NCBI GenBank assembly: GCA_000467715.1
Contig: AJFK01000086.1
Location: 1-53,685, forward strand
Reading direction: 5' to 3'
Length of the DNA: 53,685 bases
DNA from: Hysterium pulicare CBS 123377
Taxonomy: Eukaryota; Ascomycota; Dothideomycetes; Hysteriales; Hysteriaceae
The position numbers were made by a program, and so were the translations under genes. Of this stretch, positions 5,829 through 47,907 are shown piece after piece. Below the pieces are notes generated by a model that did not search any database, was not told the origin of the DNA, and saw only the letters and a program-made list of their open reading frames with translations. Every line of letters begins with the position of its first letter. Within the stretch, counting starts at the first letter, position 1.

Positions 5829-7997
5829 ATGTAAGATGATCGCTCAAGCTTCAAGCCTCCTTCCTGACTGCAAGCAGGGTATATACAGCATCTTTTGCCT
5901 TTTTCGAGGCCATTTGGGAGGCGGGAGTCACACACTGCTTCGTCAATCTGGGCTCTGATCATCCAAGCATCATTGAAGCCATCGTGAAAGGCCAGAATGA
6001 GAAGAAAGGGCAATTCCCTAGAATCATCACTTGTCCAAACGAGGTATGCCGGCCATTTTCTCTATGAATACAATGTACGTTGGCTGAGAGGTGCATGGAA
6101 GCTAACTGTGGACTCTTCAAGATGGTTGCCTTGTCCATGGCCGATGGCTATGCGCGCCTGACAAACAAGCCTCAATGTGTCATCGTTCACGTCGACGTCG
6201 GAACCCAAGGTCTTGGGGCTGCCGTTCATAACGCTTCGACAGGCCGCGCCCCCGTCCTCATCTTTGCCGGGTTATCTCCATTCACAATGGAAGGCGAGAT
6301 GCGTGGAAGCAGGACAGAATACATACACTGGATACAGGATGTGCCCGACCAGAAGCAGATCGTTGCTCAATATTGTCGATATACTGGGGAGATCAAGACA
6401 GGCAAGAACGTCAAAGTGAGCGATCGTTCGGCAATCTCTTGAGACTAAGGTGCTGACACCAGTACCACAGCAAATGGTGAACCGTGCCCTCTCGTTTGCC
6501 ATGAGCGACCCGAAAGGTCCAGTGTACTTGTGTGGCGCTCGGGAACCCATGGAAGAAGACTTGGAACCATATCAGCTAGACCAAATATACTGGCACCCTG
6601 TTGAGCCAGCCGCATTGGCCCCAGCTTCCGTAAAACTCATTGCGGAAGCACTAGTCAATGCCCAAGAGCCGCTGCTAGTCACCGGGTACAGCGGCCGTAA
6701 TCACGCGGCCGTGGAAGAACTCGTTCAATTGGCCAATTTGGTGAAAGGACTACGAGTGTTGGACACAGGAGGAAGTGACATGTGCTTTCCAGGTGAGCTC
6801 AACCACCGTCACGCCCAATAGTCTAAAATCCATGCGATTGAACGCCGATAGGGCCAGGATTATGCTAAAATGGTACGCAGCAAACCATCCGGCCTGGCTA
6901 GGACTACGCTATGGCGTTGAGCCCTCGATTAAAACGGCTGATGTCATTGTCGTTCTTGACTGCGATGTTCCATGGATACCTACCCAATGTCATCCTAAAG
7001 AAGGCGCAAAGATCTTCCACATCGATGCTGATCCGTTAAAACAGCAGATGCCTGTTTTCTACCTTAAAGCTCTTCATCGATGCCGGGCGGACAGCTACAC
7101 TGCAATTAACCAAATCAATTCTTACCTAAATTCCTCTGATCTCAAAGAAAAACTAAATAGTGCTTTATTTACCGATCGATGGGGAAAGTTGCAAGACTCG
7201 CACGGGAGAAAGCTTGAGATAATAAGTAGCGAGGCAAAGATTGACGAACAAGGCCATTTCGCAACCCCATACTTAGCTAATCAGCTGAAAAAAGCGTGTC
7301 CTAACGATACGATCTGGGTTATCGAAGCTGTGACTCAGACAGCGTTCGTCGCCGACCAACTACAAGCCACATTGCCTGGTTCCTGGATCAATTGTGGAGG
7401 TGGTGGGCTAGGCTGGAGCGGTGGTGCTGTAAGATGATCGGAGCTGCCTAAGTTCGAAGGTGTCTTGTTCTGACGTAAGTTCGCAGGCTCTTGGCATCAA
7501 ACTGGCGGCCGACACCGAAGGCAAAAAACAATTTGTCTGCCAAATTGTCGGCGACGGAACTTACCTCTTCTCGGTTCCTGGAAGCGTCTACTGGATATCA
7601 GAGCGATACAAAGTCCCAGTCTTGACTATTGTGCTAAACAACAAGGGTACATTTCTCGTTCAGATTCCTTTGACCGGAAATGGCCTGGCTAACTTGAACA
7701 GGATGGAACGCACCTCGCAAGTCCCTGCTTCTTGTACATCCAGATGGAGAAGGGTCAAAAGTCAGTAATGAAGAGCTCAACATTTCGTTTGCCCCAACCC
7801 CAGATTACTCGGGAATCGCGAAAGCGGCTGCCGGCGGTAAAATTTGGGCAGGGCATGCGAGTACGGCAAAAGAGCTTGAGAAGGTATTGCCTGAAGCAAT
7901 ACAAGCCGTTCAGAGTGGCCAAAGTGCCGTTCTCGACGCACACTTGGAAGGTCCGGAAGGTAAGTACGGCGGCGGTAAGGCTGTTTTGGTGGGATAG
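5829..7997 (+). CDS. Thiamine pyrophosphate-dependent enzyme (acetolactate synthase / benzoylformate decarboxylase type)
   Basis: Seven exons by my reading: 5829-5830, 5878-6043, 6122-6415, 6471-6792, 6881-7428, 7487-7646 and 7702-7997, giving 595 aa, normal for the family. All introns have GT/AG ends and most have a CTAAC or CTGAC branch site. The Pyr domain starts VYTASFAFFEAIWEAGVTHCF and carries the catalytic glutamate in TCPNE (residue 56). The middle domain follows (VLDTGGSDMCFPANHPAWLG). The PP domain has the Mg-TPP signature GDGTYLFS...LNNKG, then WNAPRK restored by splicing. The enzyme makes or breaks C-C bonds next to a carbonyl; substrate unknown, probably cytosolic. Oddity: the start codon is split AT|G by the first intron (see findings). 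Confidence 0.85.
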
Positions 7998-24910: not shown

Positions 24911-27900
24911 TCACATGTTTCCAGCCAGAATCGACTCGACGGCGTAATTGATGAAGGTTTTCTTGGCCGTAAGGTCTACGTTGAATCTGCACCATCGTTA
25001 GCAACTATTTGTTTCTAGTGTACGTCCAAGAAGGACTCACCTATTCTCTAACTCTTGCTTCACGCCTTTCTTCGTTACTTGCATAAGATCAACTCTCGCT
25101 AGAATATCTCGAATTTCCGCCAGAAGGGAATCTTCACTTGGCAGGTTCAAATCCGCCATCTCCATGTCACTATATCCAAGCCCACTAGGAGCAAGGCTTA
25201 TACGCGATTGGCTCCCAAACCGAGGAAGGTCGAGTTGAGACATTGGCCGTGAAGATGCGTAATAGCCACCGTAGTCAGAGCCAACGACGGAGCCAGGTCC
25301 ACGAGGATACGGCTTGGTGCCGTAAGAAATGCCGGAAATTTCGGAGCGGTCGTCGTGCATAGTATGCGCCTCCCACATTTCGGCCTGGTATTCGTCCCAC
25401 TTCTTCCTGGGAATGCTGGCGGGGTCGAAAGGTTTAACGTCGCTAATGACGACCTTCTGGCCCTTTTCGCCAGTAACAACACGGGTATTGCCCCAAGAGA
25501 AGTCATCCATGTACCAGAAAGCGTATAAAGGCAGACCAAACGCGAAGACGGGAGTTGCAAGGATATAGATAATCATCCATCCTATCATCTCCCATTTGCG
25601 TCGTAGAATGAAGATGATGGCCTGCAGACCGTATATCGCTCCAAGAAGAACGAAGGCCATGACCGGAACAACATCTTTGCTGTAGATGAGGAGATAGATA
25701 AGGTAGGCAATGTATCCTACGATCACAGGTTGGACAACCGTCGAGAGTAAGTCCAAGAAGACAATGAAACGCATGCTGAAGCAGCAGAAACCACAGAGCT
25801 GTTGGACCGGAATGAGTTCGATAAGATTGTGCACCGTCGAGTTGATCCAGCGACGACGTTGGGACATGAAAACCTTCCAGCTATCGGGAGCTACTGTCCA
25901 TGCATGAGCACGATAAAGGTACTTGGTCTTGTACTTGGGGTGGTGCTTAAGTAGTAATGTCGTCAAGTATCTGTCTTCGCCAAGGTGGAGCAGATTCTTC
26001 ATATGAAGGGTGTCCACACGAACTATTGAATAGGATTCGACGATCTCCTTGCTGACGAACAATGGCTTATGCGTTTCGGCCGCACGGATTCGATACATAC
26101 TGAAGCAACCGGGAAGACAGGTGACTGAGCCGAACAAGCTTTCGAATGCCTTTGTAAGGTTATGGGAGATGTAGTATTCGTATACCTGCATCATCGTAAT
26201 GAAAGACGATTTGGCATTCGTTAGTGAGGTTTCACCACAAATTCCAAGAAGTCTTGTGTCATGCAAGAAAGCAGCAACGAAGCGAGTAGCGGAGTCTGGC
26301 GCAACGACAGTATCGGCATCGATTTGCAGTAGAAATTCGTAGAAGGTAGGGTTGACTCCGATAATGTTACGAATCTGGTGATGCATCTCAAGTTCGAGGG
26401 GCGTCATAGGAAGGTTGTAGTGGACGCGATTCAAGAAACGCATAAGAATGACTTGAGAATCACGTTTACCACGATTGCCAGGCCTGTATATGTCAGTAAC
26501 CGTTGATATAGCTGAAAGGTTGAATACGTACTTGGAGACTTCGGATGGCTTGCCAACCTTAACCACGACGAGAAAGGGTACGATGTGACCTTGAACCTCA
26601 TACAAGCCAGAATATACTTTTCCCATGTTATGCTGTCTGTCACCTTCTCCCAAACTTTCGAAGCTTAGGGGTTCTGGATCCATGCTTTCTGATACACCGA
26701 GAATGTCGAGAACAATCCTAGGGGTAGGCTTGTCGTTGCCTTGACCGAGGATCATACCATCGCAAATAATTACCAGTAACTTGCGCTTGTCGTCGTATTT
26801 CATTCTTGCGGCTGAATCGATAGCACGACGTAAGGAGTCCTCGTCTTCGGTATAGGCGGGAACGGTGCAGATAATAAATTTTTCGAGGTTCTCGGGAACG
26901 GTCTTCCTTCCGAATTGCAACGCAGCTAGAAACTTAAAACCGATAACACTGACAAGCAAAAGCGAGATGGCGAGCAGAAGATACTTAGCGAATTGGCATT
27001 TTGCAGAGTTTCTCGTATCCAACTCTCCAACGTAGAAAAGATTGTCAAGACAGACCTGCATACGTTGTTTGCGGGCGGGATCAATGTTCAGAGTCTCCCA
27101 GTACTTTGTAACATCCTTTCCGGACTGGACTCGGAATATATCGACGACAGAAGCATCCATAAAATTTACGTCGACTGACTGATCCTTGCTGCTGTCGTAG
27201 CCGATCGGATACTCAGTCTGACGACCACCCGGAATGTACGTAGTAAGATCGTAAATACGATCGTTGATGTAGGCGATATAGTTGTTCTTGTTGGCTAAGG
27301 TCTTGAGGTATTGAGGACTATAGCCCACTCGTCCTTTCATGTAGTTTGCTTTGAGAAACACTTGCTGCTCAAACCACCAGTCTGGACGGGAGTCGTTCGT
27401 AAACCATCGAAAGTCGTGGTAACGAGCATTGAGATCAGTCGTACTAACTAGGTTGTTCTGACTCGTGTAGTTATTGTTCTTGTAATTGAGTTGAACCGCT
27501 GGGGAGACAGAGCCATCGACACCGTCGCAAAGAGCTGACACTTGAACTGGAAACAAGTTGGTTGCGTCCAAACCAGCGTATTTCTTGAGGCTTGACTGTG
27601 GGATGATTGAGGGGTAGTGAGCAGGCATAAACGCGCCGAGGTCGTAAACAATCCCTCGAATTGCGACGTAAGAACCATGACCATTTTTGCCATCGTACGA
27701 AGTTAGCTCAGAGCTGGAGTAGACATGCTGTGTAGGGCAGATCAATTGGGGAAAGCCAACTACAGATTATTAGTACATGGACGATTTGCAGTCAAGGGAA
27801 CATACCCATTAAGAATACTACCAGGGAGCAACTGAACCATATTATAAAGTTGATCGCAAGCTTTTCACGCCATGCAGTGCGAACGTCCTTCCTCTTCATC

Positions 27901-30702
27901 CTACCAATCCATTTGATGAGCAGATCAGGAATGAACCAAGTAAGCAGCCAGACTATGGTTAGCCACCTCTTGCGACTTCCAGAGGTCTTGACAACATCCA
28001 CTTCCTGCAGCTTCGGCTCTGCTCCCTTCTCATCGATCGCCTTTGGCCTATCCAGATCATGGAACATATCTCCACTAGTTATTCCGGACAGTGCCTCGGA
28101 CCTAGCGTCGACATCCCGGCTGCCAAAGTAGTTGCCGCCCTTGTCATCGTGGTAGAATGAGCCTGGAGAAGCGGCTTGCGACGAAAGCAAACGCGCCCTT
28201 GTTGAGTCCCCCACTCTGGACGCATCCCCAGGTGTGAGTAGCCCGTCGCCGTCTTCATCAGCAATAGGATAATCACGCGCAGGGAGAATTATATCTGCAA
28301 TTTTTGCAATCTCGAGCCAACGACGTTCACTGAGGAATACGCCCGTAGCTCCAATGCGAGCTTCATTCTCCCGCCAGGTTTGAGAATCGAGTATCATTTC
28401 GGCTCTTTCCTTCTCGCTCCCCACGACAACATTGTCAGACTCGGTGAGACTAAGGAATTCTGCGAATGGTAGAAACACGCTGAAATCCGCATTTCGGAGT
28501 CGTTGGCTTATCTCTGCGATCCCGAATGTCTGGACTTGCATACGCACACATTTGCTATCAAATTGATTTGCGATCCTTCGGTCGTTTGGTTTTAAGCAGA
28601 ACACAAAGAAAGGGTTGACTCCGTGGCCTGATATGGATTTCGTGATGTTGTTGAGAGAGCTGAGAAATTGCGCGGCAGCACCCTGCTGCTTACTTGATGG
28701 CTCCCCTTTCTTGCCGGAAATACTCTTGCTGTCGTACTCGCTGTTTGCATCGTCATCCAAGGCACTCACTTTACGATTGAGTCTTCCTGTGCCTTTGCGC
28801 TTCGCCATGCTGGGCATCCTCATGGGTTTGGAGCTAACAGATGCTTGAACAATTGCGCTCCTCTCCTGAGGATGGATAACAGTGTTCAAGGCATCCTGTC
28901 CAAAGAGCTCTCGAATGAAGCTGCTCTGTGTTGAATTGATGAGGTTCATCAAGTCTCCAGAGATGACCTCACCATTTTCTTCAAGCAAGCCATCCACCGA
29001 GTATTCGATATCGCCAGCATAGTGCCTTACTGTGAATGTTGCAGCAGTGTTGGGTGTTGCAAAGTTACTACCCGGTTGCATAACGGTTGCACTGGAAGGC
29101 ACAATAGCATTATTTCTCCCATCGAACCTTTTCCGGACGGCCTCCAAAAATTGCATGTCGGTTTTACCACGACGCATTTGGTCGTCGAGAATGCTGAGTA
29201 GACCGTTTCCAGGCTTCAAAAGGCCCTTCACGACCTCCGAGTTATCGAAGTACTCAGTCATGGGAACGTCGATGTCCTCAGCCTCCATATCCTCAACTTT
29301 GCGGCCGAAGAAGCTCTGAAGACAGAAGTTGAAATGGGATTCGGTGGCGGCATTATTTAAAAGCTGGTCCAGAACCGAGCCAGTTTGAGAAGAATTTGAA
29401 AACCCCGGGAAGTCAACAATGGAAATGGTGTTGGCGACCGATTCCTCAACGGCACATGTCTTTTGGTTGATTTGTTCGATGACATAAGCTACCAAGAGAG
29501 AGTACAAGGTGCGAGCCAGCTCGTCCGCGTTCGCGCGGGCTCCGCGAGGATCCAGCATGACAGTAACTCGTTCACGATAGAGTGTCTTGGTCTTGTACCT
29601 GAGACTCTGCTCAAGCTCCTGGGCACTGACACCTAGGAATGCTGCGACATAATTAAGGGTATCTTTGTTTTTAACAATTGTGGTATCCTCTCCTCCTTCA
29701 TGGGAGTAACCACCACTTTCGTTAGCGGCAGGAGTTGTGGACTGAGTAGTCATAAACTCTAGCTGACCAATATGTAGTATACTGGCCAAGATTTGGCAGA
29801 TCTCCGCTATCTCAGTACGTGAGAACTCGAGTCGCCTCAAAGCGGTTTTAAAATGTTGGAATCCGCCATTGTCATCAACGCCGACCTTCAATTGGGTTTG
29901 GTGACCGAGATATCGCCAGCGTTTCTGTCCGCCAGTCAAGGAGGCTCGTGTTCCGGCTTCATTGGCAACGGTGCCAGAGGATTCAAGACCAAGATGCCGT
30001 TTCTCCGCAGCACTGGTACCAGCTAGGAGATAGTAGAGAACATGAAAGTTCCGTTCGCCAGTCGGTACTGCCGCAACCCTACTCCTCTCTAACCTGTGGT
30101 CGAGTATCTTGCCACCAAGCAGTGTTGGTCGCATCGATGCTGAGGTGTCATATTGAAGTTCGAATAGTAGACCAGCCTTAGAGGCTGTGGGAGTAGTGAG
30201 GGACTTTGTCGTTGTGAGGGTGTCAAAAACAAAGGCAGCGTAGGAGAGCTTCCGCGAGAGTGGCGTAGAAGAGTAGTTTAAGAATGCGGTAAGAAGATGG
30301 GATCTGATAGTAGTTTTACCAGACCCAGATTCACCCCTGATCGCAATTGTTAGTCTGATAATCTGGGTAAATAGCACAGAATTGTCTGTCCGCTTACAAG
30401 AAAACAACTGCCTGATTCTCTGACCGATGTCCCAATCTCGTCCAAGCTCTCATGGCGAGGTCTTCGGCTGCTGCCATGGCACTCCCATCTTTCCCACCAT
30501 CCGGACCACGAGTGGAATCGCTGTATGTGTTGAGAGCTATTATAGCATGGGAGGAAAGCGTTGCCACAGGTAGATGGGCGTGGAATCGACTCGCAAGGTG
30601 CGCGGTCAGATGTGTGTCGGACTGCAGATGTGCGGGTAACGAGGGTAGGGAAGGCTGAGCGTATTGCGGAACATTGCCATTCAAGGAGTGCGGATTCGCC
30701 AT
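24911..30702 (-). CDS. csmA: Class V chitin synthase with N-terminal myosin motor-like domain
   Basis: Five exons: 30702-30398, 30336-27806, 27759-26532, 26483-25041 and 24986-24911, giving 1860 aa, the usual length. The myosin motor-like domain has an intact P-loop, GESGSGKT, at about 103-110, restored across intron 1, and [13 protein letters not shown]. Next come membrane segments, a cytochrome-b5-like domain ([19 protein letters not shown]), and the GT2 catalytic core with EDRYLTT (about 1524) and [13 protein letters not shown] (about 1562). The last part is a DEK_C domain ending [11 protein letters not shown]. It polymerises UDP-GlcNAc into chitin at hyphal tips and septa; the motor tethers vesicles to actin. 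The third intron (26484-26531) is 48 nt and stop-free, so its use is less certain than the others. Name after A. nidulans. Confidence 0.95.
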
Positions 30703-32516
30703 TGTTGAAGGAGGCGTCCCCGAGGGACCGCTGAATGAGCGTAGACTGCCAGCAAAAAAAGACGACTTGTGGGTGTTGTATTAGTTGGTGAGGAGAGTTG
30801 ATCAAGGGCGGTCGTGGAATGCTCAGGCTCGGGGCGAAAACAAGTTATGTAGAGGTTGATGGCAGGCGTGGGAAAAATAACAATATTACAATCAGCGAGT
30901 GTGAATAACAGCGAAAAACGAAGGGAACTTTGTGACAATTCACAGAACAAGCGTGACGGAGGAAGGCAGCGACGGGAGGAGGTAAGTTTGTGAACGTAAG
31001 AAGGACTGGTTGTTGGTGAAGATGCGTGTGTAGGCCAAGATCCTTGCAATGCGTCCTCGCCGCCGTGGCTTGTGCGCAGATGGGGGACAGCTGGAAAGGG
31101 GGCCGTCTCAACAAGTGTGAAGGGCAAAAATAGAATAAAATACAACAACACAACCCGTGGATACGAGCGTCACGTTAGGCCACGCCGGACGCCGGCCTTG
31201 TAGGCCTATATGAGTGAGAACTACTTTGTTTCTGGCTGCTACCTGGAGATGTTGTTCTTTGTGTTGGCATTCCTGCTATTGGGGACATGCCATTATTGTC
31301 CCGTCAACGACGCGGCAGCTTTAAAGTTACAAGTCACAAGCGATGGACAGCCCTAATCAAAGTCTGGGGAACGATCGCTGAAACTAGCGCAATCGTCCAT
31401 GCATGCATCCGTAATTGATTCTCTGTGGCCGAGTGGAAAGAGGTGTGCCCGAGGGCATGTTCCGTTTCGACCAGCAAACATCGGTTTGTGTGACATTTTA
31501 ACAGGAGCACGGCAGCTACTTCACACGGAAGGCATAATGCAACTTCGGAGGAGGAGCCGGATGTGTTTGTATCAAGTAACAATATTTGAAAGGGACGGGA
31601 GCTTCCACTCGGAAGGCTGGCTAATAACGTATGTGCCCCTGTCCATTTCTTTTACCACGATTCACCACTCAGCTTCCAGCCGGTTGGCGGCGATTGACTT
31701 GAGCAGATCCACAGCGCTGTTATTTACAACTAGTACTCCTCGTACTGACTACAGAATGCGCACCTCCTGCTTGATAAACAGCTCAGAAGGCCATCGCAAT
31801 CATTGAAATGCAACTGTGAAACCGCTTCGCATGTCTCTGTAAACAAACGAAATCGACTATTAATAGCTGGCTGGATGCAATGCAACCCCTGTTTTCCGAG
31901 AGCAGTCGTTCAATCAGCAGCCTTCACGCACTCGAGTGGCGTTGACTAGAGCGAAGAAAGCAAGCTGTCCACCCCTGTTGGGCGACGGATTTGCGTCGCC
32001 ACTTCGTATAGTGGGCGTCTCTCCTTTCCACGCCTGTTTCTCCTGACTACGCCGACTCGATACCCTTCTGGGATCAAAATTACAAAATTTACACATACAC
32101 CCGCAGCTGTGACCGAGTGCCACCCATGCAGCACTGGAATGGACTTTCACCAAACAACACCATCACCGTCCCATTCCGTCTCCCACTCCCCAATCTCTTC
32201 GTTTTGCACTTTCGTCTTTTCGTCTGCATTCTAACGGTCGTTTTAATCCTTTCCTTCTTCGCCTCTTCTTCGCCGAACTCGACGTAATTGTGTAGGGAGC
32301 TCCGTCACCATACCAACCTCGTCAAACTCGCTCCCCCGAAGACAACACTCGCTTTAATACCGGTGAACTCTACCGCTACCATCGCACCGTCTTCGATCGC
32401 ACCTCTTTTCGAAATTCCTCTCGCACATACCATTCGTGGTGTTCTGCTCGCATCGACCCAAAACAAGGGGAACAAGTTAACGTTGACGAGGCTGTGAGCC
32501 TCTACTCTCGCCCATC
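30703..32516. promoter_or_regulatory. Shared divergent promoter of the class V / class VII chitin synthases
   Basis: The two chitin synthases start at 30702 (minus) and 32517 (plus), leaving 1814 bp between start codons. No open frame here shows family features. It contains long C/T-rich stretches before the right start and an inverted CCAAT (ATTGG) at 31278-31282. The head-to-head arrangement is conserved in many filamentous ascomycetes, so co-regulation is likely, though no specific operator is proven here. Confidence 0.7.
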
Positions 32517-35500
32517 ATGAGTTTCTTAAGCAACCCCAACCGCATGTCGGTTTATTCCAACATCTCTGCGTCTGGTCCCCGCCCAAATAATACTTCCACC
32601 CAAGTTTCTACGTCGACATTGCTCAATGCACTCCATACAGCATATACTTCTGGCCAGCCGTATCTGTTGGAAGCCAGTACTACGTTGGTTGTAAACACAT
32701 GGTTGAATGCGAAAACTGTTGGCATAGATGGCCGCATTGGGGGTACTGTGGATATGGAGTTGGGTCGGAAAGCATGGGAACACGCACGACGCAGGGCTGA
32801 GGACGGATGCATTGTACTTGGGTAAGTAGGACAGTTGGGGAGCCCTTTATCCTCAAGGAGAGGCGTATTAACTCCTATCAGATCTCTCCACGAGTCTACC
32901 CCTTCACTATTTGCCCCGTTCATTTCGGGACTCCCGCTCCACATACCCGCAAGTTTCTACACTGCCCTCGACGTAATCAAAGCGTTTACGCATTGCGTAA
33001 CACCTCAAAACCCATCCTACCCTCGACACTCTTCATTAGCCGCCGTTTTCACCATTGCCCTCACTGGGAACCTGGTCGGAGCCTCGATCCAGCTATCAAG
33101 TTCCGGAATTGACACGAAACAAGGCCTACTCGACATTCCTGCCCAACCAGGCTTCAGAGCCTTTGACGTCTTCTATTATCTGAAGTCTAGCTCTGCATCT
33201 AGAGATGAACGAGAGTGGCTTGATCTGAAACCCCCATCTCAGTACAGGCTACTGAACAAGTCTGGAACATATCATCCTCCGTCATACCTTCCTGACGTAG
33301 ACGATGCCGCAGGTGCTGAGGACTTCAGAGATAATCTGAAAGCCATTGGCATTAAAGATGCCAAACTGTCCGATCTGATTTCCGTTCTCACCGGACTGCT
33401 TAAATTAGGCGACACTCTCGATCTATATGTCGATGGAGGAGTTTTACAGTCCATCTGCAACGACGCGGGAGCTCTTCTGGACATCAATCCTGAAGTTCTA
33501 ATGACCAAAGTATCTACCGCCGAACGTGAAATTGCCATCGGTGGCATATATGAGGCTGTGGTCGACTATGTCATTGCTCATGCCAACAACAAGATAAGGG
33601 AGGATATTCGAAGTGCCAGAGCTGCCTTCTCCTCCAGTGATTCTGATGACCAGGGAATCATGACGCCCCCTTCTGACGAAGATGGAGATATTGTCAATCT
33701 CACCGTGGTTGAGATCCCCAGTAAGGTCCTAGGCAAGGCCGTCGCTTTACGAACTGTTTTCGATGACTCCGAGGGTATCAACTCAGAAATGAAGGAAGAT
33801 GGCGTTACGGTTGTTCCCGCTGGATCGTCTGTTCTTGAGACCATGCGAGATGCAGTACAGGCAAGTGAAGCAGATCTTGGGATCATGAATGGCCCTACTG
33901 GACGTCAAAGGGAACAGGAGCGGGAAAAGCGCGAAGTAATCCTCGAGCGGATGGCGTTGGAAATACCAGAAGAAGACAATTTCCTGAAAGACATACTCAT
34001 GCCCATCGAAGGAGAAGGCATTATGCTAGGTAAACACGGTCGTCTGGATCTTCCGGCTGTTGTTGCGAGCAGCAGAGTCTGGTATCAGTTGGCAATTCAC
34101 CCTACCGACCAATCCCCTGCTTCACTTTCTCAGAACGCCTCTCCGTCATGGTCCGCTGGTACTGTATCGCAACAGCTCCGAGACTGGAGATTACCGGAGT
34201 GGGCGAACCGGCGTAACAAACATCTCGATTTCACCGCTGATTTTGATTTTGATGAGTTTCACCAGCGGTATGCATCGTTGGGATGCATGGAAGGCAAGGA
34301 CGGCATTCAAAACTGGACTCTTGAACGAGGTTGGAGCAACGGCGAGGTCGTCGTAGGCAACACCAGAATCTGGATCAGAGAAGCCGCCTGGTGGGAAGCT
34401 GAAACTCAATGCGACCTCAAGGTTCGGGAATTGTCATCGGGCAACATGTTAGGGAACATGGTGGGAGCTGGTGGCTTGGAGAGTGGTTATTCTACTCAAA
34501 GCCCCGGCATGGGCAGTGGCTTTTTCCCACCTCCCCAAGAGAACACTCCGCAGGGTAGCCGAGATAATCTACTTCAACGTCAGCAAAGCACGGCCACTTT
34601 GGGTGTTCCCAAAAGTGTTATGGGGGCGCGATCACTTGCTCCAACTGCGGCACCGACCACACGCACGAGCCGACCAGGAGATTATGGTTTGGGCGTCAAA
34701 GGCGACGAGATGAAAGGCATAGCCTATGATGGTGATGAAGAGCTTGGTGGCAATCGGATCATCATCGAGCAGCCACGATCGAAAACTCGCAAACTATGGG
34801 TAGCGTTTGTTTGGGCCATAACGTGGTGGATCCCATCGCCTCTCCTGCACTACATTGGCCGTATGAAGAGGAAAGATGTTCGCCAAGCGTGGAGAGAAAA
34901 AATCGTGCTGGTTCTGCTCATCTTCTTTATCAACGCCGTCATCGTGTTCTACATCGTTGAATTCGGAAAGCTTCTCTGCCCGAATTGGGATAAAGCATGG
35001 AATGCGAAGGAAGTATCGTACCATCAGGGCGACAATGATTTTTGGGTCAGTCATCACGGCGTTGTCTACGACATCTCGAAATTCTGGAAACGGCAGCACA
35101 GCGACACTGCGATCGAAACCACGAACGATCTCATGCAACCTTTTGCTGGCACGAACCTAGATGAATATATCGTTCCTCCACTGTGGGTAGCATGCCCGAA
35201 CCTCGTCCAGGACCCACTTCTCACCCTTCAACAAAATACCACTGTCACGAATCCGAATGGTCAACACATATCTGGCAATCTCACCGAATTTCCAACAAGT
35301 AAGCTCGCCAACCCGGATTGGTATCCTAATACGTTCTTGCCGAAGATGAAGGAATTCAAGAAAGGCGATCTTGTTTGGGATATCAATACTGTCAAGTCGC
35401 AAGGGCAAAATCAGAATCACATGTGGTTCATCATCAACGACAGAATATACGATCTGACGGACTACATGTATACCATTAACCGTATGAAAGGTGATGACCA

Positions 35501-37945
35501 TTATCAATTTCTGGATAGCAAACTGAGCGATTTGGTTACGAACTATGCTGGAACGGACATTACGTCCAGATTTCAAGACCAGCTCAACGACACTGCTCAG
35601 GCCGAAAATATGAACTGCTTAAACAATATGTTCTATGTTGGAAAGACGGATTTCCGGAAGACGCCCAGGTGCCAAGTCAACAATTACATCCTCCTTGCTT
35701 TCACCATCATTCTATGTTCCGTCATCCTTGTCAAGTTCTTAGCAGCCCTCCAACTTGGTTCGAAACGACGCCCAGCAAACCAGGACAAGTTCGTAATTTG
35801 TCAAGTCCCCGCGTATACAGAAGGCGAAGACCAGCTCAGAAAAGGCCTGGATTCCTTGACGGCTCTAGCTTACGACAACAAGAGAAAGCTCATCTGTGTC
35901 ATTTGTGATGGTATGATTGTCGGTGGTGGAAACGATCGTCCGACCCCCAAGATCGTACTTGACATCCTTGGTGTTGATCCCAAAGTTGACCCCCCTGCAT
36001 TGCCCTTCAGATCAGTAGGCGAAGGGAGTGATCAGTTGAACTATGGCAAGGTTTACTCTGGCCTCTACGAGTTTGAGGGTAATGTCGTGCCGTACATCGT
36101 TGTCGTCAAAATGGGTAAGGAATCTGAGCAGCAAAAGTCAAGACCTGGGAATCGCGGCAAGCGTGATTCGCAAATTCTGCTGATGAGCTTCCTCAACCGT
36201 GTTCACCACCGGGGGCCTATGAACCCTCTTGAGCTGGAAATGTTCCATCAAATCAATAACATTATCGGCGTAGACCCCGAACTTTATGAGTATCTACTCA
36301 TGGTTGACGCCGACACCATGGTCAAGGAAGATTCACTCAACCGACTAGTCGCAAGTTGCGCCAACGACTCAAAGATTGCTGGAATATGCGGCGAGACTAG
36401 CTTGGAGAACGAAGAACGAAGCTGGTGGACCATGATCCAAGTCTACGAATATTACATCTCACATCATTTAGCCAAGGCCTTCGAAAGTTTGTTTGGCAGT
36501 GTCACTTGTTTACCTGGCTGGTAGGTTCTGTTACTCTTGAAAATGTGAATATTGGCTAATCAACACTCAGTTTCTGTATGTATCGTCTTCGAACAGCAGA
36601 CAAGGGCAAGCCTCTCATTATTTCCGACAAAGTCATCGAAGAGTACAGCGACTGCAAAGTGGATACCTTGCACAAGAAGAATCTTTTGTCTCTTGGTGAA
36701 GATCGCTATCTGACTACCTTGATGACCAAGCATTTCCCGAACATGTCCTACAAATTTATACCGGATGCATATGCTCTCACCGCTGCCCCCGAGACATGGA
36801 GCATTCTCCTCTCACAAAGACGACGATGGATCAATTCAACCATTCACAACTTAGGCGAACTTGTTTTCCTCAAAGACATGTGCGGATTCTGCTGTTTCAG
36901 TATGCGATTCGTCGTTTTCATTGATCTTTTTGGAACCATTATTCTTCCAGCTACTTGCGGGTATTTGGGATACCTCATCTACGAAGTGGCATCTGGCAAG
37001 GGACAATTCCCATTGATCTCAATAATCATGCTTGCCGCCGTTTATGGATTCCAAGCTATCATCTTCATCATCAAACGACAATGGCAACACATCGGTTGGA
37101 TGATCATCTACATCCTCGCGTTCCCGATCTATTCATTCGTCCTGCCAATCTACTCTTTCTGGAAACAGGATGATTTCTCATGGGGGAACACCCGTATTGT
37201 CATTGGGGAGAAAGGAAACAAACAATTGGTCTCTGTTGAAGAGGAAGGGTTTGATCCTCGAAGCATTCCTCTACAACGATGGGACGACTACGCCTCTGCT
37301 AATGGTCTCCCTGGTCGTCGAGGTCTGGTTGCCCCCCACTCCGAGAAAGGTGGTATGCACAGCGTTTACGAAGATGACGGGTACGAGATGAACGACATGC
37401 AATCCGTTTACTCGTCTGTGAAGCCAGCCTCAACCATCATGTCTAACATGCATCATTTCTCCCACATGGCGCCACCACAGTCCCCTGGTCCGTACCAAGG
37501 CCTGCAGCAACGACAATCCAACTATTCTGCTTTCACTCGCTACACGGATAACCCACAAGGTGACAACGGCCGTCTGATGTCGATGGGTAACCTAAGCGAT
37601 CACTACAACAATTCCCCTTATAGTCATCGCCCTAGCATGGGCGGCTTCCAAAGCTCAGACAACCTAATGGCTATGCAATCCCCACCTATCAACCGTGGCC
37701 GAAGCCCCCTCGGTTTTGCAGCCTCCCGTCCAGGAAGCACTGTCAACTTCCAGAATATGATGAATGGTCCCAGCGACTCTGTGATCATCGAAGTAGTTCA
37801 AGCGTGTCTAAGGGAGGCCGATCTAGACAGGGTGACGAAAAAGCAGCTCGTCGCACTTGCTGAACAGAGATTGCAGACGCAATTGACGGCCGAGAGAAGG
37901 CTCTTTTTGAACCAACAGATCGATCAGGAGTTGGCGAATCTGTAA
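32517..37945 (+). CDS. csmB: Class VII chitin synthase with degenerate myosin-like domain
   Basis: Three exons, 32517-32821, 32882-36520 and 36571-37945, give 1772 aa. Introns are GTAAGT...TATCAG and GTAGGT...ACTCAG. The N-terminal region aligns with the class V motor, but the Walker A loop is absent: GSLHESTPS stands where class V has GESGSGKT, so ATP-driven motor activity is not expected. Then come membrane helices ([19 protein letters not shown]), a cytochrome-b5-like part, the GT2 catalytic core with EDRYLTT and [13 protein letters not shown] (about 1396), and a DEK_C domain near 1710-1772 ([19 protein letters not shown]). It works beside the class V enzyme in tip-wall synthesis and stress integrity. 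In A. nidulans the pair is csmA/csmB; csmB was first called class VI. Confidence 0.95.
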
Positions 37946-41707: not shown

Positions 41708-44133
41708 TGTTAACATTGGTCTGCAGACCGTTCTCCCCACCCAATATTGAAAGATGTAAGAAAGTGGGGTGTTGGATGTTGAGATGGTTTGGAAGTGGTT
41801 CGAGGCATCGGGCATGGTCTGGATTGATCAAGGCTGTGAAGCTCCGATTGATCAAGGCTTTGAGGCTCTCCCCACACTTTTTTCGGAGATCAGCGAAAGC
41901 CGATCGATCAATCGATACAACGGAACATTCACATTGAGATATGCCGGTCGTGGATGAATTATACCCTTGTGCGAATGCGACGTTAGCTTGTAAATTCGAT
42001 GTTCCCTTGATTCGGTATTTCTCCGATGATGCCTGTGCATCTCCCTATGTAACTCCCCATTCCGCTTGGTTCCGAGATGTCCAAGGAGAATAATCTACTA
42101 TTTATAACCTCAATCACGTAGATAGGAATTATAATAAAGGTAGAGATGGTTTGGTGGCCTAATCGGAAGGGGACAGGTATTAAGAAGAGCCTACGCGCAC
42201 TTTAGACATAAACAATTTAAGGAAGCAGGCAAACACACCTTTAAGTTCTTTCTATTCCCTCTTAACCATCCTAGCGATGTAGCGAAGGAACGTTGCTAGG
42301 AACATCAAGCAGTTAGACACTTTGAGGCTCATCAACGAGTATTGTGGAGGAACACCTGCACTACTTAGCTCCGGGAGAGCTTTAGGGAATGCATAAGCAG
42401 ATACTAGCTTTCCCCACACTCACGCTTCCATTCGCAAATTATATAGGATTGGATGCAGGTTGATGTAGTAGCGATAACTCACTGTCGAAAGCAACTATCT
42501 TTCAACGACAATCTCCGGACTGCAGCATACTCACAGCGTTGACCGACTTCGTAACTACTCAGTAATCTGCGCAGCTGGAGGAACAGTCAATGAATGTTAG
42601 TCTTTACGTAAAGGATAGTTTCATCTTGTGGTTCAGAGCCCTGAAAGTCTACCGGGCTTTTCTTCGACGTCTCCGGCTCTGAAACCAATATTGAGCACAT
42701 TATGACCGGGAAGAAATGACGTGATGATGTTGACGAGAGTAGGCTCGAAGGACTAGCTTCCAGCAACAAAGTGGACGGGAGATGTGAGGATCGGCCTGTA
42801 AATAGGCTTGATGCCTGGTCGGCGGGGTGAATTGGTTGATGTCTCGCAACCGTTATTCTAGAATTCGAGAGTTTATCTAGGTTGGAAAGGTAAAGGGTAC
42901 GAATGTAATCAAGTCCCCACAGAAGAAGGTTGCGATAGCTGTAGAAAATGTCAATATGAAAGGAAGCACTACTCCCTTCGTGTTGAAAATGCCCCTTCTG
43001 CTCAGTCAGTGTCATCAGAGGACAACGGTTTGGCTTTCCAAAACCCCTACTCTTACACGTATTGAGCCATTTTGCATCACGTATAGAAGATTGAATACTT
43101 GGCTGCCTCAGCATTGTGGCGATGTCTCAGGTGGTGAGGAGAATGCTCGGTCAAGGGCGACCACGTGGGCGACCGGTCGCGACATTAAGGAGATATTTGC
43201 TCACGACAGCATGCCTTGAGGTTGCCAGGTACAGCCTCAAACTGCCACGAACGAGGAAGGGTTAGCCGCGAGCGAGGCGGTTGCAACGTCCCCAATGCGC
43301 GGTGACTGGTCGCCGGGCTGGTGGTGAGTTTGGACGAGGAGTCTTGGCGGTTCGAAGTTGTTTGATGCCCCGATCTAGCTGCAGGGGTCTGCCCGCCTCC
43401 GATGCGGCGACATTTCGCGTGCACCTTCTCCCGCGTCAGGAACTTCCACTTCGATTCGACTTCCCCAGCTTTGCTCGCGGAGGCATTTTTCATCGCAGCA
43501 CGGGCCTTTCAAACAGACATATGAGACGTTGAAGCCTGGTTTCACCAAAGTTTGGCTCAACTTGGCTCAAGCGTCCAACGAGCGCCAGCCTATCGATGCG
43601 ATTAGCGAGGCTGAAAGGAACAAAGAAAATGCATGTACAAGAAGTCAGCCTCAGCTCTCAGGCTTCTCAGGCACCGGGCTTCTGCTTTAACCGCGGTATT
43701 ATGCTGGCCTGGATGGACTCATTGCCCCCTTCGCATTCGCTTCGACTTGCAAGACGGAGATACAGCACTGTGTGTGAAGCATCGAATGTCTCCAGAGGCA
43801 TCCTCGACACTCCAATGCGCTGGGAATCGATGACATAGGAATGCCTGGTTGGTTGGCTGTGTATTAACCCATATTATGCGATGGGAGATTGACGTCTAAC
43901 TGAACCCCTTCGTGAAGGCGAGAGAGACTTTCTTCCAAGAGCATATAAAACCTTGGCCTTGCGCTGTTGTTACCTTTCTCTACGCGAGTCGTTCATTGAG
44001 CAGATTTCAGAAGAGTCTATTCCATTCCGCAGGTGGCCGGCCCATCCCTTTTTCATTCGTTCATACTTGTTGTTTTTTCAGACACTAGAGTTTTCCACTA
44101 GACCTTGTATATATTGTCTTTCTATTCGTCGCC
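41708..44133. other. Gene-poor region upstream of the repeat-peptide gene
   Basis: No supported gene in about 2.4 kb. A short imperfect tandem pair built on ATTGATCAAGGCT lies at about 41823-41870. The stretch 42060-42580 is AT-rich with scattered stops and may hold relic sequence. At the right end a TATAAA at 43944-43949 lies 185 bp before the start codon of the repeat-peptide gene, with a T-rich leader between. Confidence 0.45.
43944..43949 (+). promoter_or_regulatory. TATA box of the repeat-peptide gene
   Basis: TATAAA lies 185 bp upstream of ATG 44134, in a stretch otherwise rich in C and T. Position and context are suitable for a core promoter; there is no experimental support. Confidence 0.5.
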
Positions 44134-45260
44134 ATGAAGCTCACCAATCTTCTCCCTCTTTTCGCACTGGGCGCGTCCGTCGTTGCTGCGATAGAAGACA
44201 CGTCGGTGGACTCTGTCGAACGTCGTCAACCAGTAAGTTTGGTCGATCTCACGACATCGCCGTTCGTTAAGCTGATCAGTATCCGCAGAACGGCGGCGCT
44301 GTCCTCGCGTCTTCTGTGGTCAACGCTCTGCGTCTCCGTGAAGCAGAACCCGAGCCGCATCATAAGGGCAAGAAGAACAACAAGCGCGACCCTGAACCAG
44401 TTGCTGAGCCCGAGCCGCATCACAAGGGCAAGAAGAACAATAAGAGGGAACCCGAACCTCACCACAAGGGCAAGAAGAACAACAAGAGAGAAGCCGAGCC
44501 AGAACCGCATCATAAGGGGAAGAAGAACAACAAGCGCGACCCTGAACCTATCGCGGAACCAGAGCCCCACCACAAAGGCAAGAAAAACAACAAACGTGAG
44601 GCCGAGCCCGTTGCTGAGCCTGAACCCCATCACAAGGGCAAGAAAAACAACAAGCGTGAGGCCGAGCCAGTTGCCGAACCCGAACCTCACCATAAGGGCA
44701 AGAAGAACAACAAGCGTGACCCTGAACCAGTCGCTGAGCCCGAACCCCATCACAAGGGGAAGAAGAATAACAAGCGTGAGCCGGAACCAGTTGCTGAGCC
44801 GGAGCCGCATCATAAGGGCAAGAAGAACAACAAGCGTGAGCCAGAACCTGAAGCCGAGCCAGAGCCTCATCACAAGGGAAAGAAGAACAACAAGCGCGAA
44901 GCTGAGGCTGAGCCTGAACCCCATCATAAGGGAAAGAAGAACAACAAGCGCGAAGCTGAGGCTGAGCCTGAACCCCATCATAAGGGAAAGAAGAACAACA
45001 AGCGTGAGGCTGAAGCTGAACCCGAACCTCACCACAAGGGCAAGAAGAACAACAAACGTGAGGCCGAAGCTGAGCCAGAACCCCACCACAAGGGCAAGAA
45101 GAACAACAAACGCGAGGCCTCCCCAGAGCCTGAACCTCACCACAAGGGGAAGAAGAACAACAAGCGTGAGGCTTCTCCTGAACCCGAGCCACACCACAAG
45201 GGCAAGAAAAACAACAAGCGCGAGCCAGAGCCTCACCACAAAGGCAAGAAGAACAACTAA
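44134..45260 (+). CDS. Kex2-processed secreted repeat-peptide precursor, 17 copies of HHKGKKNN
   Basis: Exon 1 44134-44232 and exon 2 44289-45260, with a 56-nt intron (GTAAGT...CCGCAG), phase 0, give 356 aa. The signal peptide is MKLTNLLPLFALGASVVAA. A short pro-segment with a dibasic site (VERR) leads to 17 tandem units at residues 51-356. Each unit is an acidic Pro/Ala spacer of 4, 6, 8 or 10 residues, then HHKGKKNN; KR follows the first 16 and the 17th ends at the stop. Kex2 cuts after KR in the Golgi, Kex1-type carboxypeptidase removes KR, and Ste13-type dipeptidyl aminopeptidase removes X-A/X-P pairs. All spacers are exact multiples of such pairs, so the predicted product is HHKGKKNN. 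The design matches yeast alpha-factor and fungal KEP/RiPP precursors; the function of this peptide is unknown. Confidence 0.9.
44340..45257 (+). repeat. Coding tandem repeat, 17 units of 36-60 nt
   Basis: Units encode 14, 16, 18 or 20 residues (12 in the last). Order of spacer lengths: 6,10,4,6,10,10,10,10,10,10,8,8,8,8,8,8,4. Cores are identical in protein but differ at synonymous third positions. Two neighbouring 54-nt units (44895-44948 and 44949-45002) are identical in DNA, a sign of recent unit duplication. Confidence 0.95.
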
Positions 45261-46527
45261 ACGGACGCTTGAAACGACTGGCGAATGGTTTGAGAGGAAC
45301 AAAATAACGCTTATCTGTTTGTGCTTTATGTCTTCGATGTACCTATAAGTTCAGCGCGGTAGCAATGAAAATGGGAGTCAAGTGGTCGATTGATGATGCT
45401 TTTCAAGTCCATTACCGTGTCACTCTTGATTTGTGATGAAGGCCTTACTCAATACGCAGATTCGTTAACTAGTATTTGTCCCCCTTTTGCGTGCGAATGA
45501 TGCCCGATTGAGGTATCGTTATGCCAGGCAGTTCATGACCTACTAGCCCAAGACTGACAATGGATCTTCGGCAGGGTTGTGGAATGTTCATATCTGGAAG
45601 TCGAGGGAGCTTGCGAACTGCATGTTTTAGCTTCCCTGATCTAAACGTCTGCTATTTTGTTGAGGAACTGGTGTAGCAAGTTGTGGTGAGTGGGAGATGT
45701 GTGTGTGAAGGCACGACGCAAAGTTGGTGACAGGACAGCTGGAGATGAGACGTTGAACGGCCCGAGTGTTGACGCTAAATCGAATTAGGCTACCTCCTCT
45801 TATCAAACATTCTCATGCAGACTACGTGAACAACATTGCATATAGATCATGTTTTTCTTCTACAAACAAATGATCCCTTTGGATGCTTTATTCGGGGATG
45901 TATCTGTTTACATATACGGGCGCTTTTGCTCCTTCCGACCGTCACAACGCAGAATCTATTACGCGCACGCTTGTTGTTGGAAGTGGCTGGCCCATATGTC
46001 TTTCTGGATCTCCTCTAAATTCTGCGTCCGATTTTCGAAAGGCTTCCAGCAGAGAAGAACCGGAGACTTTCATGCCGAGAAGAGGCGATAGCACTAGGCC
46101 TTTACAAAAGAAGAGATACGAGCAGCTACATGCGCCTACTCAGCAGAGCACGCCCGTGACTAAGGAGATGTTGGGAAAGCTCAACCACGCGTAAGCGGTG
46201 ATCATACTTAAAGCTCTCACTAATGTGAGTTCGTAGTATAATATAACGCTGTTTCTTTCATTTCTTGTTCTGCTTCCTTTCGGTTGTAACTCTCTTTGGT
46301 TATGATTCTGGTTCTTTGGTTTTGGTACGCTATCTCACTTTGAATCACATTTCTCAGAGTCGCTCCGTTGATTCAACGCACACCTGGCGCAAGTTAAAAA
46401 GCGCTCCTTGGTCGGTCTTCCCTTCCAACTCTCGAACATTCAACACACTCCAACACTCTTGAGCAACACCACCACGCTTCAACATCAAACGCAACTCATT
46501 CCCAGCCCACCAATTTGCATTACAGCC
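45261..46527. other. Intergenic, no gene seen
   Basis: This is the 3' side of the repeat-peptide gene and the upstream of the decayed F-box gene. Frames at 45836-46194 lack features. Confidence 0.45.
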
Positions 46528-47907
46528 ATGGTCGTCTTCCAGGACCTGCCGGAAGATATTCTTCATAAAATCTTCTGAAACTTTGAATACGATAGAATCA
46601 AGCTTTCTAGCCTTTGCCAAGTCTGCCGACGCTTCGCTACACTCATCCCGAGGCACTTGTTTCGACATGTTGACAACATCTCGCCAGAAAGCCAAGAGCT
46701 TCTGGAGCTTGTTTTGACGAGGAAGCCAGATTTGTTGAGCTTTATTCGATCATATGCCATCAGGATACGACCTGACGGTACACCAATGGAGACCTCCATC
46801 TCTCACGCTCTCCAATTCCCCAACCTTCGCGTCCTGAACTGCAAATTCCCTCCGTAGGCAATATGACGCAATGGGAGCGACTCATTCCCATTCAAAGAAG
46901 AGATGAGGAAGATCTTCAGTGTCATTTTCTAGACTCGCTAGGACCGCAGCTTCACAATCTCCAAGTAGTGCATCTATCGTCATTCTCAAAATCGGATTTT
47001 ACGACCACGGAAAGTGTTCGATGTATATTGATGCCAAATGTTCGGGTTGTGAAAGCCGACCGCCTCGTGAGACTTTCTACACCTAGGCTATCAGGGACGT
47101 TCAACGAATTAAATCAAACATAACTTGACATGAGCTGAACGGGTGCGCCCATTGGAGCATGGAGTCAGCCGTCTTGCGTGCGATGCTGTCTTACTGCTGT
47201 TCCCTGAAGCGTCTCAAATGTCACATTCCGATGGTCACAACGCAAGCAACTCCAAATCTCTCGTGGTTATCGAAGCCTGTCTCTCCTCGGGCTATACGGT
47301 GGGCGCTGGAACCAGCATCATATACTCTTGAGGATCTGACCATCCATGGCGACGACTATGGTACCACTTACGATGGGTCCGTGCTCGATTTATCCGCCTT
47401 TACTTTCTTATCAAATGTTTGCATAAGTGCTTCCTGTTTCTTAGCGCTAGGGGCATCATGCCCCAGGAGGTACGAGACTTACGAACTGTTACCACCCTCA
47501 TTGGAAAGACTGCAGGTATGTGGAGCCCAAGCATGAAGTGAATATGCGAAAGAATTAATTATTGTCTAGCTTGAGTTTACTTTTCCTTCCGGTGTGTTCA
47601 ACTATGATCAATAGGACAGTAACCATGACGAAAGCCAGGATCCAGGTGAAATAGATCTACTGCGGGTCGGTATCTATGGATTCTCGAGTTTCTGAACTAC
47701 AAAGCTTCCTACTTTCCGCACCTACGAAGTCTAAGAATGGTCGACTCCATGGGAATTACAGGGCAAAGGAAAAAGTGGATGGCTCCACATCATGTTGCAG
47801 AATTATTTGAAGCTGCTAAGATTGATATAGACGTGCAAATAACTGCCCAGCAAAGTATCATGGATATTTGGTACCCTAGATATAGGAATACCCAGATTTA
47901 TATTTAG
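46528..47907 (+). pseudogene. Decayed F-box protein gene
   Basis: The ATG at 46528 begins a typical F-box (FQDLPEDILHKIF, then LSSLCQVCRRFATLIPRHLFRHV) but an in-frame TGA lies at 46576-46578. A second break is the TAG at 46855. Recognisable sequence continues in another frame (46863-47123, LHNLQVVHLSSFSK), then at 47159-47536 (SLKRLKCHIPM, PPSLERLQ), and finally in a further frame near the end (WILEFLNYKASYFPHLRSL to the TAG at 47905-47907). A possible old intron is GTATGT...GTCTAG after SLERLQ. Intact relatives act as substrate adaptors of SCF ubiquitin ligases. CGA-to-TGA and CAG-to-TAG changes would explain the first stops, as in RIP-like C-to-T decay, but that is inference. Confidence 0.75.

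Follow-up and report, generated by a model that had tools for sequence, protein, structure and literature searches.

Fungal precursors with tandem cores cut out by Kex2 (KEPs) were counted by Umemura (2020, PMC7329392) at 7878 in 1345 of 1461 strains; most KEP types were reported to be confined to a single genus, and 2560 of these KEPs had no homologues, so that a lone core is common. KEPs in which the Kex2 site is directly followed by X-Ala or X-Pro dipeptides, the Ste13 signature of alpha-factors and of some other KEPs (PMC6339444; PMC9769878), were described as a class by Le Marquer et al. (2019, PMC6339444), by whom they were argued to be good candidates for peptide hormones. Three other systems share parts of this layout. 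Ascomycete alpha-pheromone precursors (yeast MF-alpha, PpgA, Ccg-4) follow the same Kex2/Kex1/Ste13 processing logic, and dikaritin precursors (ustiloxin, phomopsin, asperipin) carry Kex2-cut tandem cores. The insect apidaecin and hymenoptaecin precursors have EAEP spacers, RR/KR sites and several mature peptides per precursor, and their maturation was assumed to take the same three steps (PMC3415428).

The window analysed here, 53,685 nucleotides from Hysterium pulicare CBS 123377, is a complete contig (C72) of an assembly of 37.2 Mb in 596 contigs. It holds a gene that the first-pass annotation had described as encoding a signal peptide, interrupted by an intron, and carrying 17 perfect copies of HHKGKKNN, sixteen of them followed by KR. 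Translation, hydropathy and the splice model bore out this description (Table 1), and the alpha-factor-style architecture that it had proposed (signal peptide, 17 cores, 16 KR sites) is supported. Residues 1-19 form a hydrophobic segment with small residues ahead of the predicted cut; signal-peptide cut sites are placed by the -3,-1 rule. GTAAGT was the only consensus-type donor found within 44134-44330, and the branch-like CTGAT at 44272 is followed by the acceptor CCGCAG. An alternative acceptor at 44279, used with the same donor, would also leave the frame open (47-nt intron, 359 aa), at a position only a few bases past the branch-like CTGAT; the 56-nt intron is the best splice model predicted from these signals. 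Rfam gave no match above the gathering score in region 43000-46500. A Pfam hit to Trypan_PARP (E 0.00075) scored 19.9 bits, below the 100-bit cut-off, and was discarded as a low-complexity match.

Table 1. Features of the HHKGKKNN precursor gene, in window coordinates
Feature	Position	Strand	Description	Basis
Precursor gene	44134..45260	+	ATG at 44134, TAA finishing at 45260; two exons, 356-residue secreted-type product	translation
Possible promoter element TATAAA	43944..43949	+	190 bases upstream of ATG	motif match only
Exon 1	44134..44232	+	signal peptide and start of pro-region	translation, hydropathy
Signal peptide MKLTNLLPLFALGASVVAA	in exon 1; predicted cut after residue 19, about 44190	+		sequence, hydropathy
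Arg-Arg in VERR/QP	44221..44226	+	possible Kex2 cut in pro-region	sequence
Predicted intron, 56 nt, GTAAGT...CTGAT...CAG	44233..44288	+		consensus-type donor, branch-like site before acceptor
Exon 2	44289..45260	+	remaining pro-region, 17 cores, 16 KR sites, 16 X-Pro/X-Ala spacers, stop	sequence
First HHKGKKNN core	44358..44381	+	LR-EAEPEP ahead, not KR	sequence
Last HHKGKKNN core	45234..45260	+	TAA immediately after core	sequence

A survey of gene content covered 20 of the 53 frames listed for the window. The recognisable genes were unrelated to the precursor: two chitin synthases with myosin-like regions, END3, an initiation-factor-type GTPase and a sulfotransferase, together with frames for a SET protein, a bZIP protein, a dual-specificity phosphatase, an alpha/beta hydrolase, a FAD-binding protein and a GH5 protein. 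The two chitin synthases stand head to head at 25040-37942 (minus-strand frames 25040-30449, plus-strand frames 32826-37942) and have myosin-like and cytochrome-b5 domains. Head-to-head arrangement is typical of class V/VII chitin synthase pairs. Downstream of the precursor gene, at 46528-46575, lies a frame start, MVVFQDLPEDILHKIF, which appeared F-box-like by eye.

The cores are alike as peptides and diverse as DNA. Thirteen DNA versions encode the 17 copies, variation is limited to seven of the 24 columns, and every change is synonymous and at a third position. Pairs of core DNAs showed on average 2.33 differences against 3.33 synonymous sites, with zero amino-acid changes; without selection (neutral fraction 0.236), a set of at least eight changes would be wholly synonymous with a probability of about 1e-5. 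Such identity at the protein level over 13 DNA versions points to selection, rather than recent copying or homogenisation, as the force keeping the cores alike, and low-complexity sequence evened out by homogenisation does not account for the array. Across the 37.2 Mb assembly, degenerate DNA encoding HHKGKK was matched 17 times, each time within the precursor gene, as against none in the reversed control.

The spacers are less uniform. Each of the 16 stands right after a KR, with a length of 4 (two spacers), 6 (one), 8 (six) or 10 residues (seven), and nine distinct sequences occur among them. Read in phase from the KR, all 66 pairs across the 16 spacers are X-Pro or X-Ala (EP 41, EA 14, VA 5, DP 3, SP 2, IA 1), V, I, S and D occurring in the first position of a pair only. 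When residues were shuffled within each of the nine distinct spacers the phase was kept in 0.3 to 16% of cases, giving a joint chance of about 1e-18; the origin of the spacers by duplication makes this figure an overstatement of the evidence.

Profile searches of the contigs identified candidates for the enzymes able to read this code. The single P-domain locus is Kex2-type, with an 862-aa frame in which an S8 domain, the P domain and a membrane span follow one another, and kexin 2id4 is its best solved-structure match (E 4e-181). A single Ste13-type locus was likewise found, in which a membrane span precedes the DPPIV_N domain; the first half of its S9 domain was read (profile 3-106 of 213), the remainder presumably lying in a further exon, and the predicted domain order is the layout of Ste13. 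S10 carboxypeptidases gave 35 matches in the genome, among which a Kex1 orthologue was not singled out.

Together, the anatomy of the precursor and the enzymes present make a Kex2/Kex1/Ste13 processing route highly probable. The precursor would enter the ER, Kex2 would cleave behind each KR in the late Golgi, a Kex1-type carboxypeptidase would then take off the KR, and removal of the X-Pro/X-Ala pairs by a Ste13-type dipeptidyl aminopeptidase would halt at His-His, each precursor yielding up to 17 HHKGKKNN peptides (calculated monoisotopic MH+ 962.528, net charge about +3 at pH 7). His-His would thus form the N-terminus, while the C-terminus follows from loss of the KR and, in the last core, from the stop codon that abuts it; the mature peptide is accordingly predicted to be exactly HHKGKKNN. 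The N-terminally extended forms anticipated by the first-pass annotation, which had overlooked the Ste13 code in the spacers, are thus replaced by a predicted eight-residue product. The first core may nevertheless be released in a longer form owing to its LR-EAEPEP context, and the internal KK could be a weak Kex2 site. We infer that the precursor is secreted and actually cleaved.

By these features the predicted precursor joins the known class of KEPs with a Ste13 signature. Such proteins carry an N-terminal signal peptide and at least three near-identical motifs parted by Kex2 sites, here 17 cores and 16 KR, and the genome encodes both Kex2- and Ste13-type enzymes, as judged from domain order and membrane spans; the 17 copies compare with 3 to 129 repeats reported for KEPs (PMC6339444). 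A family outside known classes had initially been proposed for this peptide, a view that is not supported, since KEPs with Ste13 spacers had already been described (PMC6339444). What sets the precursor apart from other members is the core, for which the searches made returned no counterpart, and the strict phase of its spacers.

With the full-length protein as query, scoring was confined to the 8000 candidates with the most shared words, which may have cost some remote homologues. Two KEP-like proteins with other cores, P0002 and P0003, were recovered; HHKGKKNN occurred in no protein of this search. P0002 has KR-EAEPA spacers and polar Gly/Arg/His/Asn-rich cores, but differs in carrying several core types within one precursor (NRGGSGRS, HGHGGSGRG and NVRNNVNHGG). 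Polar cores with Ste13-like spacers are therefore not unique to the HHKGKKNN gene. P0003 has repeated CLFHGQGC cores and resembles an alpha-pheromone precursor. Residues 1-66 used as query retrieved 678 candidates, none at E <= 10. For comparison, Ste2 had 322 relatives in the same database, with a best identity of 69% among the 120 listed, and the best named relative among the matches listed was from the Dothideomycete Glonium stellatum (68%). The class is thus represented in the database, yet no close relative was seen. Likewise, HHKGKKNN, HHKGKK and KGKKNN were not found in the literature searched (main texts, exclusive of supplementary tables), and HHKGK appeared there in an unrelated context only.

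Within the genome, the pattern KR[E/D][A/P][E/D][A/P] gave 51 matches as compared with 30 in the reversed control, 14 of them in the HHKGKKNN gene and three in a KEP on contig C424; the remaining 34 are at about chance level. Inspection covered 13 of the 37 matches outside the HHKGKKNN gene (the three on C424 and ten single ones, two of which had no open motif frame). The C424 KEP (33743-34651) comprises a signal exon, one intron and long repeats near QGPTLGNPSSTTTWG; seven KR sites part these repeats, and Ste13-like pairs follow most of the sites.

We favour, with a probability of about 0.5, the reading in which the gene would be an alpha-factor-style precursor of one unmodified linear octapeptide acting as a hormone-like secreted signal distinct from the mating pheromone. 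Sequence-specific recognition would be most likely because all core residues are constant while spacers and codons drift. The spacer code alone is no proof of a signal, as EAEP spacers together with RR/KR sites also occur in insect antimicrobial precursors (PMC3415428). The total absence of hydrophobic residues in HHKGKKNN is unexpected for a putative receptor ligand and counts against a signal. A visible role is also disfavoured by kep deletions in Coprinopsis, reported to have no detectable phenotype (PMC9769878).

A full alpha-factor architecture would also be expected of a mating pheromone, and the octapeptide could be the sexual alpha-pheromone of the lineage, or a second one. Sexual alpha-pheromones were recognised by two Cys residues, by PYGxPxG in Pleosporales, or by a mating-factor family match. 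HHKGKKNN, devoid of Cys, Pro, Tyr, Trp and any hydrophobic residue, carries neither motif, and Pfam gave no mating-factor match for its precursor. The unlikeness of the core to known alpha-pheromones, already pointed out in the first-pass annotation, is made more telling by a separate alpha-pheromone-type precursor on contig C149 of the same genome. This minus-strand frame of 228 aa (ATG at 30438) contains five YIHGCHLVGQSCG copies: KEKR or KAKR comes after four of them, and the final copy runs directly into the stop, as does the last core of the HHKGKKNN precursor. Dipeptide-like runs precede some copies (e.g. GAEAEAEAEA), one copy is preceded by TELDAR, and an additional degenerate copy reads SCGMPGQPC. 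A two-cysteine alpha-pheromone group was reported for Dothideomycetes outside Pleosporales (PMC6339444), and the predicted C149 precursor fits this group. Its segment CHLVGQSC was not found in the literature searched, where the shorter HGCHL appeared in unrelated contexts only. Pfam had no match for the C149 frame either; the missing family match of the HHKGKKNN precursor consequently weighs little, and it is the core motif that discriminates.

Pheromone motifs were also scanned over the whole genome. CxxxGQ[A/G/P/R]C gave 35 matches (control 26), and of the 11 frames read, including those on C68, C78, C407 and C161, C149 alone was of pheromone type. The one CxxPGQGC match (C161; control 0) lies in a frame of 26 aa and is no precursor, the four WCxxxGQxC matches (control 1) were all in short frames without repeats, and PYG[x]P[x]G was matched nowhere (control 1). 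One Ste2 locus was found (two exon matches), which presumably serves the canonical pheromone, with YIHGCHLVGQSC(G) as a candidate ligand. HHKGKKNN is hence not the sole candidate for Ste2, and the existence of a separate pheromone-type precursor beside one receptor locus makes it very improbable that the octapeptide is the sexual alpha-pheromone.

Another possible explanation is based on metal chemistry. Ste13 trimming would free a GHK-like His-His-Lys start, and the secreted octapeptide would be a small ligand for copper (or for nickel or zinc), which might serve in uptake, in buffering or in poisoning competitors. GHK is a familiar Xxx-His peptide whose amino group, first amide and His-2 imidazole coordinate Cu(II). 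The predicted mature N-terminus, HHK, would likewise place His at position 2, a likeness that hinges on the predicted Ste13 trimming. NH2-Xxx-His peptides (Xxx not Pro) were reported to have high, tridentate affinity for Cu(II), and blocking of the amino group to weaken binding (PMC11591581); for such a ligand the exact dipeptide phase exposing HH would be chemically required, and a 17-fold copy number suits a bulk ligand. This reading leaves the equal invariance of KGKKNN unexplained. No copper-related gene was recognised among the 20 window frames scanned, nor was a precedent for a Kex2-processed His-copper peptide found among the titles and abstract openings of the literature matches listed. 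We regard a metal ligand as less likely than a signal but as a serious rival, and the proposal that pheromone machinery makes a copper ligand of ribosomal origin, or a signal dependent on copper, activated only by dipeptidyl aminopeptidase processing, as rather unlikely.

The insect precursors raise the question of a cationic antimicrobial or competitor-directed peptide released from an acidic-spacer multipeptide precursor, as are apidaecin and hymenoptaecin. The shared EAEP spacers and RR/KR layout (PMC3415428), the positive charge of HHKGKKNN and acidic spacers that partly offset the cationic cores (about +1 per unit) all agree with such a role. However, the cores and the organisms are unrelated, and a peptide of eight residues with a GRAVY of -3.2, without proline and without any hydrophobic or aromatic residue except His, is poorly suited to it. 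The Pfam Apidaecin hit was rejected as a low-complexity match below the cut-off (E 0.34, 11.5 bits against 23.1), its best stretch, 135-147, spanning KR, spacer and one His. An antimicrobial function is accordingly considered improbable, and a membrane-lytic one, given the lack of hydrophobic residues, would be the least likely among antimicrobial, signalling and metal-binding roles. A target outside the fungus could also be a plant or animal partner, the peptide then being an effector. Differential expression was reported for 25 of 56 KEPs, several of them during plant infection (PMC6339444); nothing recognised in the window suggests host interaction, and a low probability is given to this possibility as well.

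The least probable of the alternatives, and one we find scarcely credible, is that the gene encodes a cyclised dikaritin-type RiPP precursor of the ustiloxin/phomopsin type. The Kex2 repeat layout is the same and 43 UstYa-type exon matches occur in the genome, but dikaritins are expected to have a Tyr-bearing core and a UstYa partner, and neither was seen: HHKGKKNN has no Tyr, and none of the 43 matches is on contig C72. As this contig ends 8.4 kb past the gene, the absence of UstYa is strong on the left flank and weaker on the right. For 22% of KEPs a UstYa (DUF3328) gene was reported, at a mean distance of 3.09 genes, and pheromone genes hardly ever had one beside them; a di-histidine motif was described in two widespread KEP types, G-3 and G-8, most of which have a UstYa gene nearby (PMC7329392). 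The Ste13 signature is, moreover, absent from toxic cyclic tetrapeptide precursors according to PMC6339444. The UstYa matches are spread over many contigs (e.g. three each on C552 and C299), and their number suggests that the genome encodes a large set of dikaritin-type RiPPs.

Few fungal KEP peptides have an assigned function, and the HHKGKKNN case is unusually clean. One Kex2-type gene and one Ste13-type gene were found, and the separate pheromone-type precursor argues against mating, the default explanation. The spacer code and the stop codon define the predicted mature peptide to the residue, which makes it directly testable as a synthetic peptide. Should HHKGKKNN prove to be a signal, as we favour, alpha-factor processing would extend to a non-mating hormone in an ascomycete; copper binding would make it a fungal copper peptide of ribosomal origin.
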